Origin: Methanofollis fontis
GTDB lineage: Archaea; Halobacteriota; Methanomicrobia; Methanomicrobiales; Methanofollaceae
Length of the DNA stretch: 64,000 nucleotides
Direction of reading: 5' to 3'
NCBI RefSeq assembly: GCF_004297185.1
Contig: NZ_PGCL01000001.1
Location: forward strand, 372,001 to 436,000
The position numbers were made by a program, and so were the translations under genes. Below the pieces are notes generated by a model. That model ran no database searches. It had not been told where the DNA came from and saw nothing but the letters and a program-made list of their open reading frames with translations. Within the stretch, counting starts at the first letter, position 1. The number at the start of each line of letters is the position of its first letter. Positions 13,601-34,917 of this stretch are shown in pieces.

Positions 13601-14847
13601 TGCTCGGCGACATCGTTGCTGATGTGCATGCCAGAACGCGGGCAGAACAGCGTCTCCGGGAGAGCGAGAAAAAATTCAGGTCATTCGTGGAGGGTTCAAA
13701 CGACGTCTTCATGAGGATGACCATCGGGCCCTCGGGGCCCGTGCTGGAATACATCAGCCCGTCATTTGAACAGATGTCCGGGTATAGCCGCGAGTGTATG
13801 TTCACGCATCGCGATATGGGATTCCGCTTCCTCCACCCGGACGACCGGGCGCGATTCCTGCAATGGCAGCGCAGTTCCTATAAGTCGTTCTACAGACCGG
13901 AGACGTTCAGGTGGATGAACAGGGATGGCCGATACATCTGGACGGAGAACTGCATGATCCCGGTCTTTGACGAAGAAGGGGCGGTGGTCGCCATCGAGAT
14001 CGTCATCCATGACATCGACCATATCAAACGGACCGAAGAGGCGTTCAAACAGACAAACAAAAAGCTGGCGCTTCTGGGCAGCATCACCCGGCATGACATC
14101 CTCAACCAGCTGACGGCGGCATTCGGCTACCTGGACCTCATCAGGGACCGGATCGACGACCCCCTGGTCACGAAGTTTTTTGAACGGCAGGAAGGGGCAC
14201 TCAGGCAGATCCAGTCCCAGATCGAGTTCACGAAGAGTTATCAGGAACTCGGGGTGCGCATGCCGGAATGGCAGAAGGTCACCGAAGTGATCGCCCGGGT
14301 CTCCAGACCCTTCATTGAGGAGGGGATCAGGGTCATGGCAGATATCGACGGGCTGGAGGTGTATGCCGATCCCATGCTGGAGAAGGTCTTCTACAACCTC
14401 CTGGACAACTCGTTGAGGCATGGGGGCGCGGTCTCCAGGGTAACGGTCTCCTCGATGCGGGTTGAGAATGTCACCCAGATCATCTGGCAGGACGACGGTG
14501 TCGGCGTGCCGGAGGAGGAGAAGGAACGGATATTTGATCGGGGGGTCGGAAAAAATACCGGGTTCGGGTTGTTCCTTGTCAGGGAGGTGCTCTCCATCAC
14601 GGATATGAGCATCAACGAGTGCGGCATTCCGGGCAAAGGAGCGAAATTTGTGATTACCGTGCCGCCAGGGATGTTCCGTGTCCGGGGGGAGGCATGGATC
14701 GCCCCCGACCCGATCAATATCAGGATCACCGCACCTGGTGAGGGGGATACCCCGAAAAACCAGCCATACGACACCATTCCTGACGGACACACCGACAGAG
14801 GGGCATGCAGTCCGACGAGTATAGACCAGCGCCGGCGATCACAATAA
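10669..14847 (+). CDS. Multi-PAS/GAF sensor histidine kinase with N-terminal receiver
   Basis: 1392 aa, predicted soluble. Domain order: receiver (1-125; VDDE and VSDYQMPGIDG), PAS (about 135-255), GAF-like (265-425), PAS (435-560), PAS (565-690), PAS (700-805), GAF (815-985), PAS (995-1115), phospho-acceptor helix with RHDILNQL near residue 1140, and HATPase with N-box NLLDNSLRHGG near 1243, DDGVGVP near 1275 and GFGLFL near 1298. A polar tail of about 50 residues follows. The receiver at the N-terminus rather than C-terminus is common in Methanomicrobiales kinases. No cognate output regulator is adjacent. Confidence 0.9.
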   Translation: MTHVLYVDDEPYLLEIFREFLEMKGDMDVEVAGSVPEALDLLKDHHVDVIVSDYQMPGIDGIEFLRMIRERDASLPFILFTGKSREDVVIRALNSGADYYLQKGGDASAQFAEMRNLILHAVGRRLAEAAQRESELRYRHVVEDQTELIRRFLPDGTTVFANGAFCRYYGVDEQEVIGSTAPPFLLRGEEERIARHLASLSPEEPVKPITTRLILSDGRIRWHHQYDRALFDQNGAVTEYQSVGRDVTDMTISEANLALKNNVFGILASGEDILSDGPAKWALSEALSGIAWALHLDQVTIQTVGPGPEGGPSIAAPLIAWRRDAALSGVEVTPIPDLRYRPCPRRWLEILERGDPVEGDLQDFSEEERAWAASPEMETFVAFPVFFRGTFWGFIAAFGKDGGRSWAEEERLAFGNASDLIRYAIEWYRKGWDLAESEAKFKAIADLAQDAIVLIDSDDRVAYWNNAARQMFGYSNEDFASRTLHECITGKSFDHTYYREQFAELKRTGRTFLSGKVLELTARRKDGTRFAMELSSSSINLKGEWHLLAICRDISERKLMEDRLRENEEKFRTIAELAQDAIVLVDGHDRVRFWNRAAEEMFGYPADEILDRSIYQCLKREGTPPHYTAALEEFRETGDGFLDQKIFEITLKCRDGRSLPVEVSVSPVRIDGEWLGVGIIRDLSGRRAAEAALRESEESYRTIFETTLDGMAVIDAETLEVLMANRAFLNILGYGSSDPDAAPVRIFDLIHPAWKDWVTSLINGDLLGGEQIDELPLVLQDGSQRWIRVLGRMTLFGGRPAGLISCIDITEKRRVEVMLRRRNELEALIRAISTRFLTLERADLDREFRAVLGEVGGALEADSATILLFNDEHARVDSCYWWSANGLDSRPQELENSTTHRFSWWMDRLRDLKPIHIPSVDAMPEESATEKEFFQMFGVGSILAFPIASKAGLFGHISFQTVGRECSWSEEDIAILSMLGDIVADVHARTRAEQRLRESEKKFRSFVEGSNDVFMRMTIGPSGPVLEYISPSFEQMSGYSRECMFTHRDMGFRFLHPDDRARFLQWQRSSYKSFYRPETFRWMNRDGRYIWTENCMIPVFDEEGAVVAIEIVIHDIDHIKRTEEAFKQTNKKLALLGSITRHDILNQLTAAFGYLDLIRDRIDDPLVTKFFERQEGALRQIQSQIEFTKSYQELGVRMPEWQKVTEVIARVSRPFIEEGIRVMADIDGLEVYADPMLEKVFYNLLDNSLRHGGAVSRVTVSSMRVENVTQIIWQDDGVGVPEEEKERIFDRGVGKNTGFGLFLVREVLSITDMSINECGIPGKGAKFVITVPPGMFRVRGEAWIAPDPINIRITAPGEGDTPKNQPYDTIPDGHTDRGACSPTSIDQRRRSQ

Positions 14848-14867
14848 CCCCTCCATTTCCACTGGAG
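14846..14867 (-). promoter_or_regulatory. ORB-like element
   Basis: AACCCCTCC followed by ATTTCCACTGGAG. The reverse complement matches the core CTCCAGTGGAAA with a G-run on the correct side. It overlaps the end of the kinase gene and begins a small ORB+GATC cluster that ends at 15031. Confidence 0.5.
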
Positions 14868-15011
14868 CCGATCGGACCGATGTTCTGCGGGTGATCCCGG
14901 GTTATACCCTGATATTTTTGCCGCGATCCGGGAGGGAGGGGAGGGATCATGACCCGATAGATCTATTGAACACTATGGCGATCTATCGATTCCGGCGGCA
15001 AGGCACAATAA
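14868..15011. other. GATC-rich gap between two ORB-like boxes
   Basis: Seven GATC sites occur from about 14837 to 14980. The sequence TTATACCCTGAT (14902-14913) recurs exactly at 31178-31189 inside the probable main origin. No gene is seen. Confidence 0.45.
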
Positions 15012-15031
15012 ACCCATTATTTCCACTGGAG
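15012..15031 (-). promoter_or_regulatory. ORB-like element (weaker)
   Basis: ACCCATTATTTCCACTGGAG. The 12-bp core TTTCCACTGGAG is intact but the G-run is degenerate. It has the same orientation as the box at 14846. Confidence 0.4.
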
Positions 15032-26914: not shown

Positions 26915-26943
26915 GCGCAAAATACCGTACCAATCCCATTTTT

Positions 26944-26964
26944 CGACTGGAAACAAAGGGGTCC
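26944..26964 (+). promoter_or_regulatory. ORB-like element in the hel308 leader
   Basis: CGACTGGAAACAAAGGGGTCC matches the origin boxes near 31.6 kb over ACTGGAAACAAAGGGG, with the left end degenerate. It sits 2 nt before the hel308 ATG, downstream of the predicted TATA box, where a bound Orc1 could block transcription. Confidence 0.5.
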
Positions 26965-26966
26965 AT

Positions 26967-29135
26967 ATGAAGGTAGCTGACCTCCCCATCCCCGAATCCC
27001 TCAAATCCGCATATGCCGACCGCGGGATCGCAGAACTCTACCCCCCCCAGGCGGCGTGTGTGGAGAGCGGGATCTTCGAGGGGAAGAACCTGCTCTGCGC
27101 CATCCCCACGGCGAGCGGCAAGACGATCATCGCCGAGATGGTGATGCACCGCCATGTGGCCGACGGCGGGAAGTGCCTGTATATTGTCCCCCTCAAGGCC
27201 CTCGCCACCGAGAAGTACGACGATTTTTCCGGGCGGGGGGTGCGCGTCGGGGTGGCGACCGGCGACCTCGACCGCCGGGATGCCTACCTGGGGCGAAACG
27301 ACATTATCGTCGCCACCTCGGAGAAGGTGGACTCCCTCCTGCGGAATGCCGCCCCCTGGCTCGGCGAGGTCAGCCTGCTCGTGGTGGACGAGTGCCACCT
27401 CATCGGTTCGCCGGACCGGGGTGCGACCCTGGAGATGGTGATCGCCAAACTCCTCTCAAAGAACCCGGGGATGCAGGTGATCGCCCTCTCGGCCACGGTC
27501 GGCAACCCCGGCGCCCTTGCCGGATGGCTGGACGCCGAACTGGTCACGAGCGAGTGGCGCCCGGTGGACCTCAGGGAGGGCGTCTTCTTCGACGGCACGA
27601 TCCATTTCACGGACAGCGAACGCGAGGTGCGCCGCTCCTCCCGCTACGACGACCTGAACCTGGTGCTCGACACCGTGGGGGAGGGGGGGCAGTGCCTGGT
27701 CTTCGTGAATTCCCGGCGCAACGCCGAGGCGTTTGCAAAGCGGGCGGCTGGAGGGCTGAAACTCTCCGAAGAGGCCCTTGACACCGCCGCCGACGCCATA
27801 GAGCGGGCGGCCACCACCGACCTCGGGCGCACCCTGGCCCTCTGCGTGCGAAAAGGGGCGGCCTTCCACCATGCGGGGCTCTCGGCCGCCGAACGCCGTA
27901 TCGTCGAGGACGGGTTCAGGAAGGGCTCGATCCGGGTGATCTCCTCCACCCCGACGCTTGCCGCCGGCCTGAACCTCCCGGCCCGCCGGGTGGTGATCCG
28001 CGACTATCTCCGTTTCGGGAACGGCGGCATGGCGCCGATACCGGTGGGGGAGTACAAGCAGATGGCCGGTCGGGCGGGCCGCCCCCACCTCGACCCCTAC
28101 GGCGAGGCGGTGCTCATCGCCAAGGGGGCGACCGCCTGCCAGGACCTCTACGAGAACTATATCGATGCACCGCCCGAGGAGATCACCTCGCAGTGCAACT
28201 CCGAGAACGCCCTGCGCTCACATGTGCTCTCCCTGGTCGCCACCGGTTTTGCCCGCACCCCCGCCGGAGTGATCGAGTTCATGGAGCGGACCTTCTATGC
28301 CTGGGAGCACCGCGGCCGCCGCTCCACGATCCACGAGACGATCGGGCGGGTGATCGACTGGCTCGCCGAGCGCGAGATGATCACCGCCCTCGGCGATCGG
28401 CTTGAGGCGACCGAGTACGGCGACCTGGTCTCCAGGCTCTATATCGACCCCAGGAGTGCGGAGGGGATCGTCGACGCCCTCGAGCGGGCCCCCGAGTTCT
28501 CGGGGTTCGGACTCCTGCAGGCGATCTGCGAGACCCCGGACATGCTCACCCTCTACCTGCGCAAAGGGGACGAGGAGATGATCTACCGCTTCCTCTCGGA
28601 GCATGAGGACGAACTCTGGACCGGCGCGCCCTACGGCACCGACGAACTCGAGCGCTTCTACTCAAGCGTGAAGACGGCGATGCTCCTCCAGAACTGGTCG
28701 GAGGAGGTGACCGAGGAGATGATCTGCGAGCGCTTCAATGTCGGGCCCGGCGACATCCATAACAAGGTCGAGACGGCGGTCTGGCTGGTCCACGCCGCCT
28801 CGCGTCTGGCCTCCCTGTTCAAGGGGGAGTTCAAACGCCCGATCGAGGAGGACGGGATCCGGATCCGCCACGGCATCAAGAAGGAGCTCCTCCCCCTCAT
28901 CAGGCTGAAGGGGATCGGACGGGTGCGGGCCCGCCGCCTCTTCAACGCCGGGATCGCCACCCCGGCGGCGATCCGGGAGGCGGGAACCGCCCGCCTCGCC
29001 CCGATCCTGGGCGAAAAAACGGCGGCATCGGTGCTCGCCCAGATCGGGGAGGGTGCGGACGAACGCACCGTCGAAGAGGAGACATCCAGCCGTCAGTTCT
29101 CTCTTTCCGCCTTCGGGGGTGAGGGGGATGAGTGA
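26967..29135 (+). CDS. hel308: ATP-dependent DNA helicase Hel308
   Basis: 722 aa, superfamily 2. Motif I is IPTASGKT, motif II DECH, motif III LSATVGNP and motif VI QMAGRAGRP; the N-terminal Q-motif region is LYPPQAACVESG. A winged-helix/ratchet region and a C-terminal helix-hairpin-helix part (LIRLKGIGRVRARRLFNAG) complete the Hel308 layout. The enzyme unwinds stalled replication forks 3'-5' in archaeal repair. It is coupled by overlap with the KEOPS gene cgi121 and lies about 4.7 kb from the orc1 gene. Confidence 0.95.
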   Translation: MKVADLPIPESLKSAYADRGIAELYPPQAACVESGIFEGKNLLCAIPTASGKTIIAEMVMHRHVADGGKCLYIVPLKALATEKYDDFSGRGVRVGVATGDLDRRDAYLGRNDIIVATSEKVDSLLRNAAPWLGEVSLLVVDECHLIGSPDRGATLEMVIAKLLSKNPGMQVIALSATVGNPGALAGWLDAELVTSEWRPVDLREGVFFDGTIHFTDSEREVRRSSRYDDLNLVLDTVGEGGQCLVFVNSRRNAEAFAKRAAGGLKLSEEALDTAADAIERAATTDLGRTLALCVRKGAAFHHAGLSAAERRIVEDGFRKGSIRVISSTPTLAAGLNLPARRVVIRDYLRFGNGGMAPIPVGEYKQMAGRAGRPHLDPYGEAVLIAKGATACQDLYENYIDAPPEEITSQCNSENALRSHVLSLVATGFARTPAGVIEFMERTFYAWEHRGRRSTIHETIGRVIDWLAEREMITALGDRLEATEYGDLVSRLYIDPRSAEGIVDALERAPEFSGFGLLQAICETPDMLTLYLRKGDEEMIYRFLSEHEDELWTGAPYGTDELERFYSSVKTAMLLQNWSEEVTEEMICERFNVGPGDIHNKVETAVWLVHAASRLASLFKGEFKRPIEEDGIRIRHGIKKELLPLIRLKGIGRVRARRLFNAGIATPAAIREAGTARLAPILGEKTAASVLAQIGEGADERTVEEETSSRQFSLSAFGGEGDE

Positions 29136-30295: not shown

Positions 30296-30799
30296 TCACC
30301 CCCGGGCATGGGAGAGGATATGTCGGAGTTCGGGGATGATGATATCTGCCATGGCCAGGCGGACCGCTCCGGTCGAACCCGGTATGCAGAAGATCGCCCG
30401 TCCGCCCGCCACACCTGCCGAGGCGCGGGAGAGGAGGGCCGAGGTCCCGATCTCCTCGTACGAGAGTCTCCTGAAGATCTCCCCGAAGCCGTCGATCCTT
30501 TTTTCATAGAAGGGTTCCACCGCCTCGATGGTGCAGTCGTCGGAGGTGAGACCGGTGCCGCCGTTCAGGATCACCGCGTCCGCGTCGGAGAGGGAGCAGA
30601 TCAGGGCAGCGCGGATCGCCACCTGATCATCCTTCACGATCCTGTAGAAACGCACCGGATATCCGGCACCCTCCAGGTGCTCCCGGATCGTTCGACCGCT
30701 CGTATCGGTCTCCTCGGTCCGCGTCGTGGAGACGGTGATCACCGCCACCCCGATGCTGATATCCCTGATGTGCTCTGTTTTCATGATTGCTTCACCCAT
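30296..30799 (-). CDS. moaB: MoaB/MogA-family molybdopterin-binding protein
   Basis: 167 aa (162 if the ATG at 30784 is used). It has the MoCF-binding fold motifs ITVSTTRTEETDTSG, LNGGTGLTSDDCTIEAVEP and CIPGSTGAVRLAM. MogA-type proteins adenylylate molybdopterin during molybdenum or tungsten cofactor synthesis, which methanogens need for formylmethanofuran and formate dehydrogenases. No other moa/mod gene is near. Whether it is an active adenylyltransferase or MoaB-like cannot be decided here. Confidence 0.9.
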   Translation of the reverse strand: MGEAIMKTEHIRDISIGVAVITVSTTRTEETDTSGRTIREHLEGAGYPVRFYRIVKDDQVAIRAALICSLSDADAVILNGGTGLTSDDCTIEAVEPFYEKRIDGFGEIFRRLSYEEIGTSALLSRASAGVAGGRAIFCIPGSTGAVRLAMADIIIPELRHILSHARG

Positions 30800-30936: not shown

Positions 30937-30957
30937 ACCCCTTTGTTTCCACTGGAG
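30937..30957 (-). promoter_or_regulatory. Origin recognition box (ORB), inverted
   Basis: The reverse complement reads CTCCAGTGGAAACAAAGGGG plus T. This is the best match in the window to the archaeal ORB form (TTCCAGTGGAAAC followed by a G-run), and it points opposite to the two boxes near orc1. Confidence 0.75.
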
Positions 30958-31113: not shown

Positions 31114-31456
31114 GATCCCGGTGACGATCCCTGGATCTCCATACCCTGAGTGATCAGGACAGGGGTGGTGTTCCCTCTTATACCCTGATCATCCACCCCG
31201 ACAGGTCTCGAGATCGGTCAGGATCGATCGCGATCGGTCGGGATCTCACCAATGTGATCCTGATCTCCCGTGACTGGACAGGATCTCCGGGGTTTCTCGC
31301 GATCCACTGATCCGGATCCTGCCTGATCCCCCTTCCTCCGCGCTCCTGATCGATCCCGTGATCTCGATCCCCTCCAGATCCCATCGATCTGTCCCGCGAT
31401 CCGGATCGATCGGGATCACCTCCTCTCGCGATCTAGAAGATCTCTCTTTTGAGATC
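31114..31456. repeat. GATC-dense block in the origin
   Basis: Thirty GATC tetramers by eye in 343 bp, against about 1.3 expected by chance. Many occur in extended forms such as GGATCGATCGCGATCGG (31221-31237) and CCGGATCGATCGGGATC (31401-31417). The sites stop where the AT-rich stretch begins. Confidence 0.85.
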
Positions 31457-31515
31457 AGAGAAGATTTATAGTACAACAAGATAACCCTACAACAAGCTGT
31501 TTTACCAGTGTTATA

Positions 31516-31538
31516 GGAAAACAGGTCACCTGTTTTCC
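31516..31538. promoter_or_regulatory. Perfect palindrome in the origin
   Basis: The arms GGAAAACAGGT and ACCTGTTTTCC are separated by one base. It lies 4 nt before the ORB at 31543. It could bind a dimeric protein or extrude as a cruciform. Confidence 0.75.
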
Positions 31539-31542
31539 ACAG

Positions 31543-31566
31543 GTTCCACTCGAAATAAGGGGGTCC
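31543..31566 (+). promoter_or_regulatory. Origin recognition box (ORB), variant
   Basis: GTTCCACTCGAAATAAGGGG followed by GTCC. Its spacing between core and G-run matches the box at 31634, with two or three core substitutions. Confidence 0.6.
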
Positions 31567-31633: not shown

Positions 31634-31657
31634 GTTTCCAATGGAAACAAAGGGGTT
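31634..31657 (+). promoter_or_regulatory. Origin recognition box (ORB) near orc1
   Basis: GTTTCCAATGGAAACAAAGG followed by GGTT. The core is a perfect TTTCCA/TGGAAA palindrome. It sits between TATA-like sequences CTTTATAA (31623) and GTTATATC (31655) upstream of orc1, so Orc1 may repress its own gene. Confidence 0.7.
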
Positions 31658-31713: not shown

Positions 31714-32997
31714 ATGTCTGACAACGAAAATTCATCCCTCGGACTCTTCCAGAAGTACCTCTCGAACACCAGGATCTTCAAGAACCGGGAGGTCCTCCGT
31801 CACTCCTACCGTCCCCAGATCCTCCCCCATCGTCGTCCCCAGATTGACTCGATCGCATCGATCCTGGCACCGGCCCTCAAGAGCGAGACCCCGTCGAACA
31901 TTCTCATCTACGGCAAGACCGGCACCGGCAAGACCGCATGTGTCCGCTATGTCGGATCAGAGCTCGAGAAGGTCGGTGCCGGGATGGGGACCGGGTGCCG
32001 GGTGGTCCACCTCAACTGTGAGGTGATCGACACCCAGTACCGGGTGCTCGCCCAGATCGCCAAGGGTCTCGAAGATCTCGATGCCACCCCCTCCGACAAG
32101 GCCCGCGCCCATATCCCGATGACCGGGTGGCCCACCGATCAGGTGTATACCGAACTCAAAAACCAGCTCGACGCCACCGGGGGAGTGCTTGTCATCGTGC
32201 TCGACGAGATCGACAAACTCGTCAAGAAGAGCGGGGACGAGACCCTCTACAACCTCACCAGGATCAACTCCGACCTCAAGGCCTCCAAGGTCTCGATGAT
32301 CGGGATCTCAAACGACCTCCGGTTCACCGATTTTCTCGACCCCCGCGTGCTCTCCTCCCTCTCTGAAGAGGAGATCGTCTTCCCGCCCTACAACGCCCCG
32401 CAGCTCTGCGATATCCTGACCCAGCGCGCCCAGATGGCGTTCGTGGAGGGGAGTCTGGAGGAGGGGGTGATCCCGCTCTGCGCCGCCTTCGCCGCCCAGG
32501 AGCACGGCGACGCCCGCCGCGCCCTGGACCTGCTGCGGGTCTCCGGCGAACTCGCCGACCGCGAGAACGCCGAGCGCGTCGGGGAGAAGCACGTCAGGAT
32601 GGCCCTCGACAAGATCGAGGCCGACTCGATGATCGAGTGCATCTCCACCCTGCCGACCCAGAGCAAGGTGGTGCTCTACTCGATGCTGCTCCTCGAGGAG
32701 ATGGACAAGAAGATCTTCACCTCCGGTGAGGTGACCCGGGTCTACCGCGAAGTCTCCAAGATCGTGGACATCGACCCCCTCACGCACCGGCGGATCACCG
32801 ACCTCATCTCCGAACTGAACATGCTCGGGGTGATCAACACCCGCGTCGTCTCCAAGGGGCGTTACGGAAGGACAAAAGAGATGTGGTTTGACACCAACAC
32901 GAAGAAGATACAGGACGTACTCGCAAAGGACCCGCGGCTCTCCGAGGACCGGCTTGCCCATGTCGACCTCAACCGCCTGCGGGCCTCGTTCCGGTGA
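31714..32997 (+). CDS. cdc6: Orc1/Cdc6 replication initiator
   Basis: 427 aa from the ATG at 31714; the longer frame would read through an ORB. An AAA+ domain has Walker A GKTGTGKT, Walker B VLDEIDKL and sensor 1 IGISND; an arginine-rich region (EHGDARRALDLL) precedes the C-terminal winged helix. It binds ORBs and loads MCM helicase at the origin. It heads a probable operon with an Lrp-type regulator and an aminotransferase, whose genes follow with gaps of only a few bases. Confidence 0.96.
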   Translation: MSDNENSSLGLFQKYLSNTRIFKNREVLRHSYRPQILPHRRPQIDSIASILAPALKSETPSNILIYGKTGTGKTACVRYVGSELEKVGAGMGTGCRVVHLNCEVIDTQYRVLAQIAKGLEDLDATPSDKARAHIPMTGWPTDQVYTELKNQLDATGGVLVIVLDEIDKLVKKSGDETLYNLTRINSDLKASKVSMIGISNDLRFTDFLDPRVLSSLSEEEIVFPPYNAPQLCDILTQRAQMAFVEGSLEEGVIPLCAAFAAQEHGDARRALDLLRVSGELADRENAERVGEKHVRMALDKIEADSMIECISTLPTQSKVVLYSMLLLEEMDKKIFTSGEVTRVYREVSKIVDIDPLTHRRITDLISELNMLGVINTRVVSKGRYGRTKEMWFDTNTKKIQDVLAKDPRLSEDRLAHVDLNRLRASFR

Positions 32998-34726: not shown

Positions 34727-34747
34727 AACCCCTTGATTTCCACTGGA
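34727..34747 (-). promoter_or_regulatory. ORB-like element downstream of the cdc6 operon
   Basis: AACCCCTTGATTTCCACTGG then AG. The reverse complement has CTCCAGTGGAAAT and an intact GGGG. An AT-rich palindrome (CATAATATTATG, 34760-34771) follows within 15 bp. Confidence 0.6.
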
Positions 34748-34917
34748 GATCTGCATAAACATAATATTATGCAATTGGTCATATTGTTCTATTCTAACTC
34801 AGATTCCCCCTCCGATGCACCGGCACACCCCCGGAAAGGGCGTGGCTGGCCGCGGCAGATTTCTGCGGATCTGGATCTGCAGGCCCCCCCTCGCGGAGCG
34901 CCGGTCTCCTCCACGAA

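Follow-up and report, generated by a model that had tools for sequence, protein, structure and literature searches.

Why should the predicted replication origin of a methanogen carry a dense block of the four-letter site GATC, and does the block amount to an archaeal counterpart of the methylation-timed origin control of E. coli? How archaea avoid firing an origin twice is poorly understood, and a role of DNA methylation in archaeal replication has so far been suggested mainly from CTAG clusters in haloarchaea. The block was found in a 64-kb stretch of Methanofollis fontis DNA (hereafter the window), positions 372001-436000 of contig 1 of a 2.36-Mb, 22-contig genome. The initial annotation counted 30 GATC sites in about 340 bp, ending where an AT-rich core begins, and proposed either an arrangement similar to the Dam/SeqA control of enterobacterial oriC or a binding array for an unknown protein.

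The GATC array and its surroundings

The observation proved correct, as exactly 30 GATC sites (8.7 per 100 bp) lie in the non-coding DNA from 31114 to 31456. The chance expectation of 1.3 sites given by the initial annotation was too low, since the window holds 755 GATC (11.8/kb), corresponding to 4.0 +/- 2.5 per 343 bp, and Markov models trained on the window give 3.4-4.0 with a maximum of 11-13 in 2000 simulations. The block is still enriched 7.4-fold, with a Poisson P(>=30) of about 1e-16 per placement. Its overlapping GATCGATC forms, described as many, are few (3).

Similar GATC density at other loci had been named as a ground for refutation, and it was not found in the stretches sampled. 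The next-best 343-bp stretch in the window has 10 sites, the maximum in 20 stretches of 20 kb from the same genome (400 kb, 4115 GATC, 10.3/kb) is 11, and the maximum in 140 kb of four congeners is 11. A pattern of three GATC searched over the genome gave 746 hits and does not discriminate, because GATC is common. The block is not one expanded repeat, as the longest tandem repeat detected in it by Tandem Repeats Finder is 38 bp, a 20-bp unit with 1.9 copies.

The place shows the usual anatomy of an archaeal origin. The orc1/cdc6 initiator gene (427 aa) lies at 31714-32997 (+), and three sites resembling the origin recognition box (ORB) surround the array. The distal ORB at 30937-30957 (-) is inverted and matches exactly the consensus used, CTCCAGTGGAAACAAAGGGGT, while the proximal ORB-like site at 31544-31564 (+) has 5 mismatches and the second proximal ORB at 31636-31656 (+), directly upstream of orc1, has 2. 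The same inverted/direct layout occurs in the congeners, with the distal ORB on the far side of the array. The array ends at 31456, where AT-richer DNA begins (64% AT at 31450-31499), and the conserved AT-richer core at 31457-31543, with TACAACAAGCTGTTTT, is a candidate unwinding region.

Next to the array, the palindrome GGAAAACAGGTCACCTGTTTTCC at 31516-31538 is conserved in all 11 Methanofollis genomes with this region. In three of them, designated G003, G005 and G006, its centre is itself GATC, and the motif occurs in only two (L208, L212) of 78 named loci of other genera. It may be a further binding site or a hairpin. The gene on the far side of the origin at 30296-30799 (-), MoaB/MogA-like as judged by eye, also flanks the origin in several congeners. 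GC skew of the window was uninformative as support for the origin. Further ORB-like sites with 2-3 mismatches lie away from the origin at 14847-14867 (-), 15011-15031 (-), 26942-26962 (+) and 34728-34748 (-), one of them just upstream of a helicase-like gene starting at 26967.

Conservation and turnover of the array

In total, 61 related genomes were covered by the search with orc1. All 11 Methanofollis genomes with upstream sequence have a GATC array at the orthologous orc1, with 23-41 sites per 343 bp except for the congener G007 with 13. The array of the congener G010 (locus L025) contains a run of N and 96 GATC in 1.5 kb; short-read assemblies may under-represent array length.

No comparable array was found outside the genus. 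Upstream of orc1, the relatives fetched have at most 9 sites per 343 bp, save locus L031 of genome G049 with 17, and the maximum is 12 in the 78 other named loci of the order, a few of which have under 400 bp upstream. In 50 loci drawn across the phylum it is 11, save locus L353 of genome G098 with 16. Both exceptions are tandem repeats. L031, in family f4, holds a 44/88-bp repeat with paired GATC at 739-997, between ORBs upstream of orc1, which could be an independent small array or chance, whereas L353 holds exact 36-bp repeats with two GATC each at about 1713-2055 of the reverse complement, inside the N-terminal part of an orc1-like reading frame. The four other orc/cdc6 paralogues of the window's genome (maximum 8) and 13 paralogue loci of seven congeners (maximum 10) have no array.

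Within the genus, the spacers between GATC sites do not align between species groups. Their identity is hardly higher than after permutation (0.49-0.50 against 0.46 for the window's species versus the congeners G002 and G004), whereas the adjacent core is 79-80% identical and the GATC density is kept at 7-12 per 100 bp. No longer motif around GATC is conserved, as the flanks are nearly random in composition, and one-mismatch relics of GATC are not in excess. Repeat expansions differ between species, for example an 82-bp unit of 3.2 copies in L021 and a 19-bp unit in L026, both congener loci. Site-by-site conservation of GATC was higher than that of other 4-mers in some close pairs of loci (29/32 against 28/62 for L027 versus L026) but not in another (27/31 against 51/61 for L027 versus L025), and since these alignments are anchored on GATC, density with spacer turnover was relied on instead. 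The simplest reading is selection for many exact GATC, whatever lies between them.

The METHYLTRANSFERASES of Methanofollis

The window's genome (G000) encodes an alpha-class adenine methyltransferase of the Dam/DpnM family at C1:269402-270313, which scores 260.8 bits against TIGR00571 (cut-off 114.85) and has DpnM as its best solved match. It lies near UbiA-, TetR- and HD-domain genes, with no recognised restriction gene among the neighbours inspected. G002 and G004 also have it (70% identical), while eight congeners (G001, G003, G005, G006 and G008-G011) lack it and carry a beta-class, DpnA-like enzyme. The best solved match of the beta enzyme is CcrM, a GANTC enzyme, but this identity was rejected, as the beta enzyme lacks the CcrM C-terminal domain, is split from CcrM in the tree with 100/100 support, and groups with the second methylases (M2.DpnII/DpnA) of GATC-specific DpnII-like systems. 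It is 49% identical to the closest match, on pSRQ700, which lies next to a Dam-type methylase and a restriction enzyme gene. The pSRQ700 system is LlaDCHI. LlaDCHI is listed among the GATC-specific lactococcal systems (PMC4190342).

The beta gene of Methanofollis sits beside a SIS-domain gene and an aminotransferase gene, again with no restriction gene among the neighbours inspected. Similar neighbours occur in a genome of another family (G052), and at that locus G000, G002 and G004 show no trace of the gene. Over the 61 genomes, alpha and beta coincide once only (Fisher p 6e-7, a test that ignores kinship), so most genomes of the order keep a GATC-type methyltransferase by one class or the other. 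The GATC specificity of the beta enzyme is inferred from this near-exclusion and from homology. G009 has an additional, more distant D12-class methyltransferase (locus L178, G009:C1:1762000-1775000) next to large genes that look like a different modification system.

An alpha or beta gene is intact in 11 of 12 Methanofollis genomes. The twelfth, G007, keeps only a beta gene that lacks about residues 107-236 and is then out of frame (locus L165, G007:C13:12000-16500, contig positions about 13741-14129), no alpha gene was found in this 88% complete genome, and its array is the weakest, with 11 sites in 153 bp. This is a single case, although in the direction that the methylation model predicts. 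Alpha genomes have about 27-31 sites and beta genomes up to 63, a difference confounded by kinship. Other genera of the order carry the same enzymes without an array, hence methylation does not require the array.

Known readers of GATC methylation were also searched for. The SeqA profile PF03925 was found in 0 of 21 genomes with a positive E. coli control, and no DpnI-type reader was found; three DpnI_C hits below cut-off (E 0.02-0.08) were treated as chance.

Interpretation and comparison with known systems

The interpretation of the initial annotation is therefore partly supported. Origin anatomy, a density unique in the sampled genome, recurrence at the orthologous origin of the 11 Methanofollis genomes and a Dam-family methyltransferase all agree with it, but the block is absent from orthologous origins of the other Methanomicrobiales genera examined, which makes it a Methanofollis trait, and since SeqA was not found it is not literally the enterobacterial Dam/SeqA system. 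The best explanation, with a probability of roughly 0.57, is a selected array of methylatable GATC sites inside the predicted orc1-linked origin, which would be methylated by a GATC adenine methyltransferase without a restriction partner, of the Dam/DpnM class here and of the DpnA class in most congeners. Fork passage would then leave dozens of hemimethylated sites packed between the ORBs, and this state, read by a protein not yet known or directly through altered DNA/Orc1 interaction, would delay or license re-initiation until remethylation. The analysis itself establishes the array, its exclusive place, its presence across the genus with spacer turnover and a GATC-type methyltransferase in 11 of 12 genomes, whereas origin activity, methylation of GATC by these enzymes in vivo, the reading of the hemimethylated state and the control of initiation are inferred from sequence. 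The exchange of enzyme class makes it likely that the methylated site matters rather than the enzyme as a binding protein. It is possible, though only tentatively proposed, that this represents an archaeal once-per-cycle control which arose independently of SeqA, with selection on the bare tetranucleotide, an unrelated unknown reader or Orc1 itself, and enough robustness for the methyltransferase to be exchanged for another class within one genus.

A methylation-blind array, coated by a GATC-binding initiator accessory, nucleoid or partition protein that shapes the origin while methylation is incidental, remains possible but is considered unlikely. GATC is the only conserved element, spacings of 6-8 bp dominate as a protein array could require, and other genera have the enzymes without an array. 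However, the absence of flank preference beyond four bases is unusually short for a dedicated binding site, GATC is common genome-wide, and such a protein would explain neither the retention of a GATC-type methyltransferase by exchange of classes nor the weak array beside the broken enzyme in G007.

A direct physical effect is more doubtful still, in which dense m6A would lower duplex stability beside the AT-rich core or alter Orc1/MCM loading with no dedicated reader and no cell-cycle signal. m6A destabilises duplex DNA, the array abuts the AT-richer core and no known reader was found, but the array itself is about 58% GC and extends up to about 1 kb in congeners, far more than unwinding would need. 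A functionless by-product of tandem expansions that happened to contain GATC is very unlikely. Although several congeners hold tandem repeats in the array and the lesser clusters of L031 and L353 are just that, the window's array has almost no tandem repeat, species groups share the tetranucleotide with unrelated spacers, and one-mismatch copies are not in excess.

Four conserved origin clusters of orphan-methyltransferase motifs have been reported, including CTAG clusters upstream of haloarchaeal orc1/cdc6 (Blow et al. 2016, PMC4752239). The array likewise is a conserved non-coding cluster of the putative target motif of a restriction-free methyltransferase upstream of orc1, but it involves GATC and inferred m6A instead of CTAG and m4C, occurs in a methanogen at one orc locus only with up to 41 sites per 343 bp, and is confined to a genus in which the cognate enzyme, assigned by homology, is exchanged between two classes, while related genera have the enzyme but no cluster. 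Dam/SeqA control of oriC in enterobacteria likewise combines a GATC cluster within the origin with a Dam-family methyltransferase, whereas here the predicted origin is of the Orc1/ORB instead of the DnaA/oriC type, the array is much larger and denser with unconserved spacers, and some congeners use a beta-class enzyme. A literature search for Methanofollis together with GATC found nothing, which does not exclude papers outside the library searched. Methanofollis offers a compact array, two interchangeable enzyme classes, related genera with the enzyme but no array, and one genome with a broken enzyme and a shrunken array, which makes a methylation-timed archaeal origin directly testable.

A REBASE survey lists the Dam-like orphan group HG3 as persistent in Methanomicrobiales, in 15 of 19 genomes (PMC10609329). 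The window's alpha enzyme fits this group by family and taxon, and the origin array and the alternative beta enzyme for GATC in this order, neither of which was found described there, are added here. In Haloferax volcanii, GATC and CTAG are enriched near oriC2 (PMC5867850), but as a cumulative-frequency trend that its authors say may reflect gene acquisition, with no compact array found described. Among palindromic tetramers, CTNAG, GANTC and CCWGG, no comparable motif cluster was detected at the origins of other genera. Mild GTAC enrichment (6 in 343 bp, 8-11 fold) was seen near orc1 in three loci of other genera (L198, L194 and L200), GTAC being a target of a persistent m4C enzyme in parts of this order (PMC10609329). 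In the 400-kb sample of the window's genome, CTAG is strongly avoided (observed/expected 0.16) and CGCG is low (0.42), while GATC is slightly over-represented (1.12).
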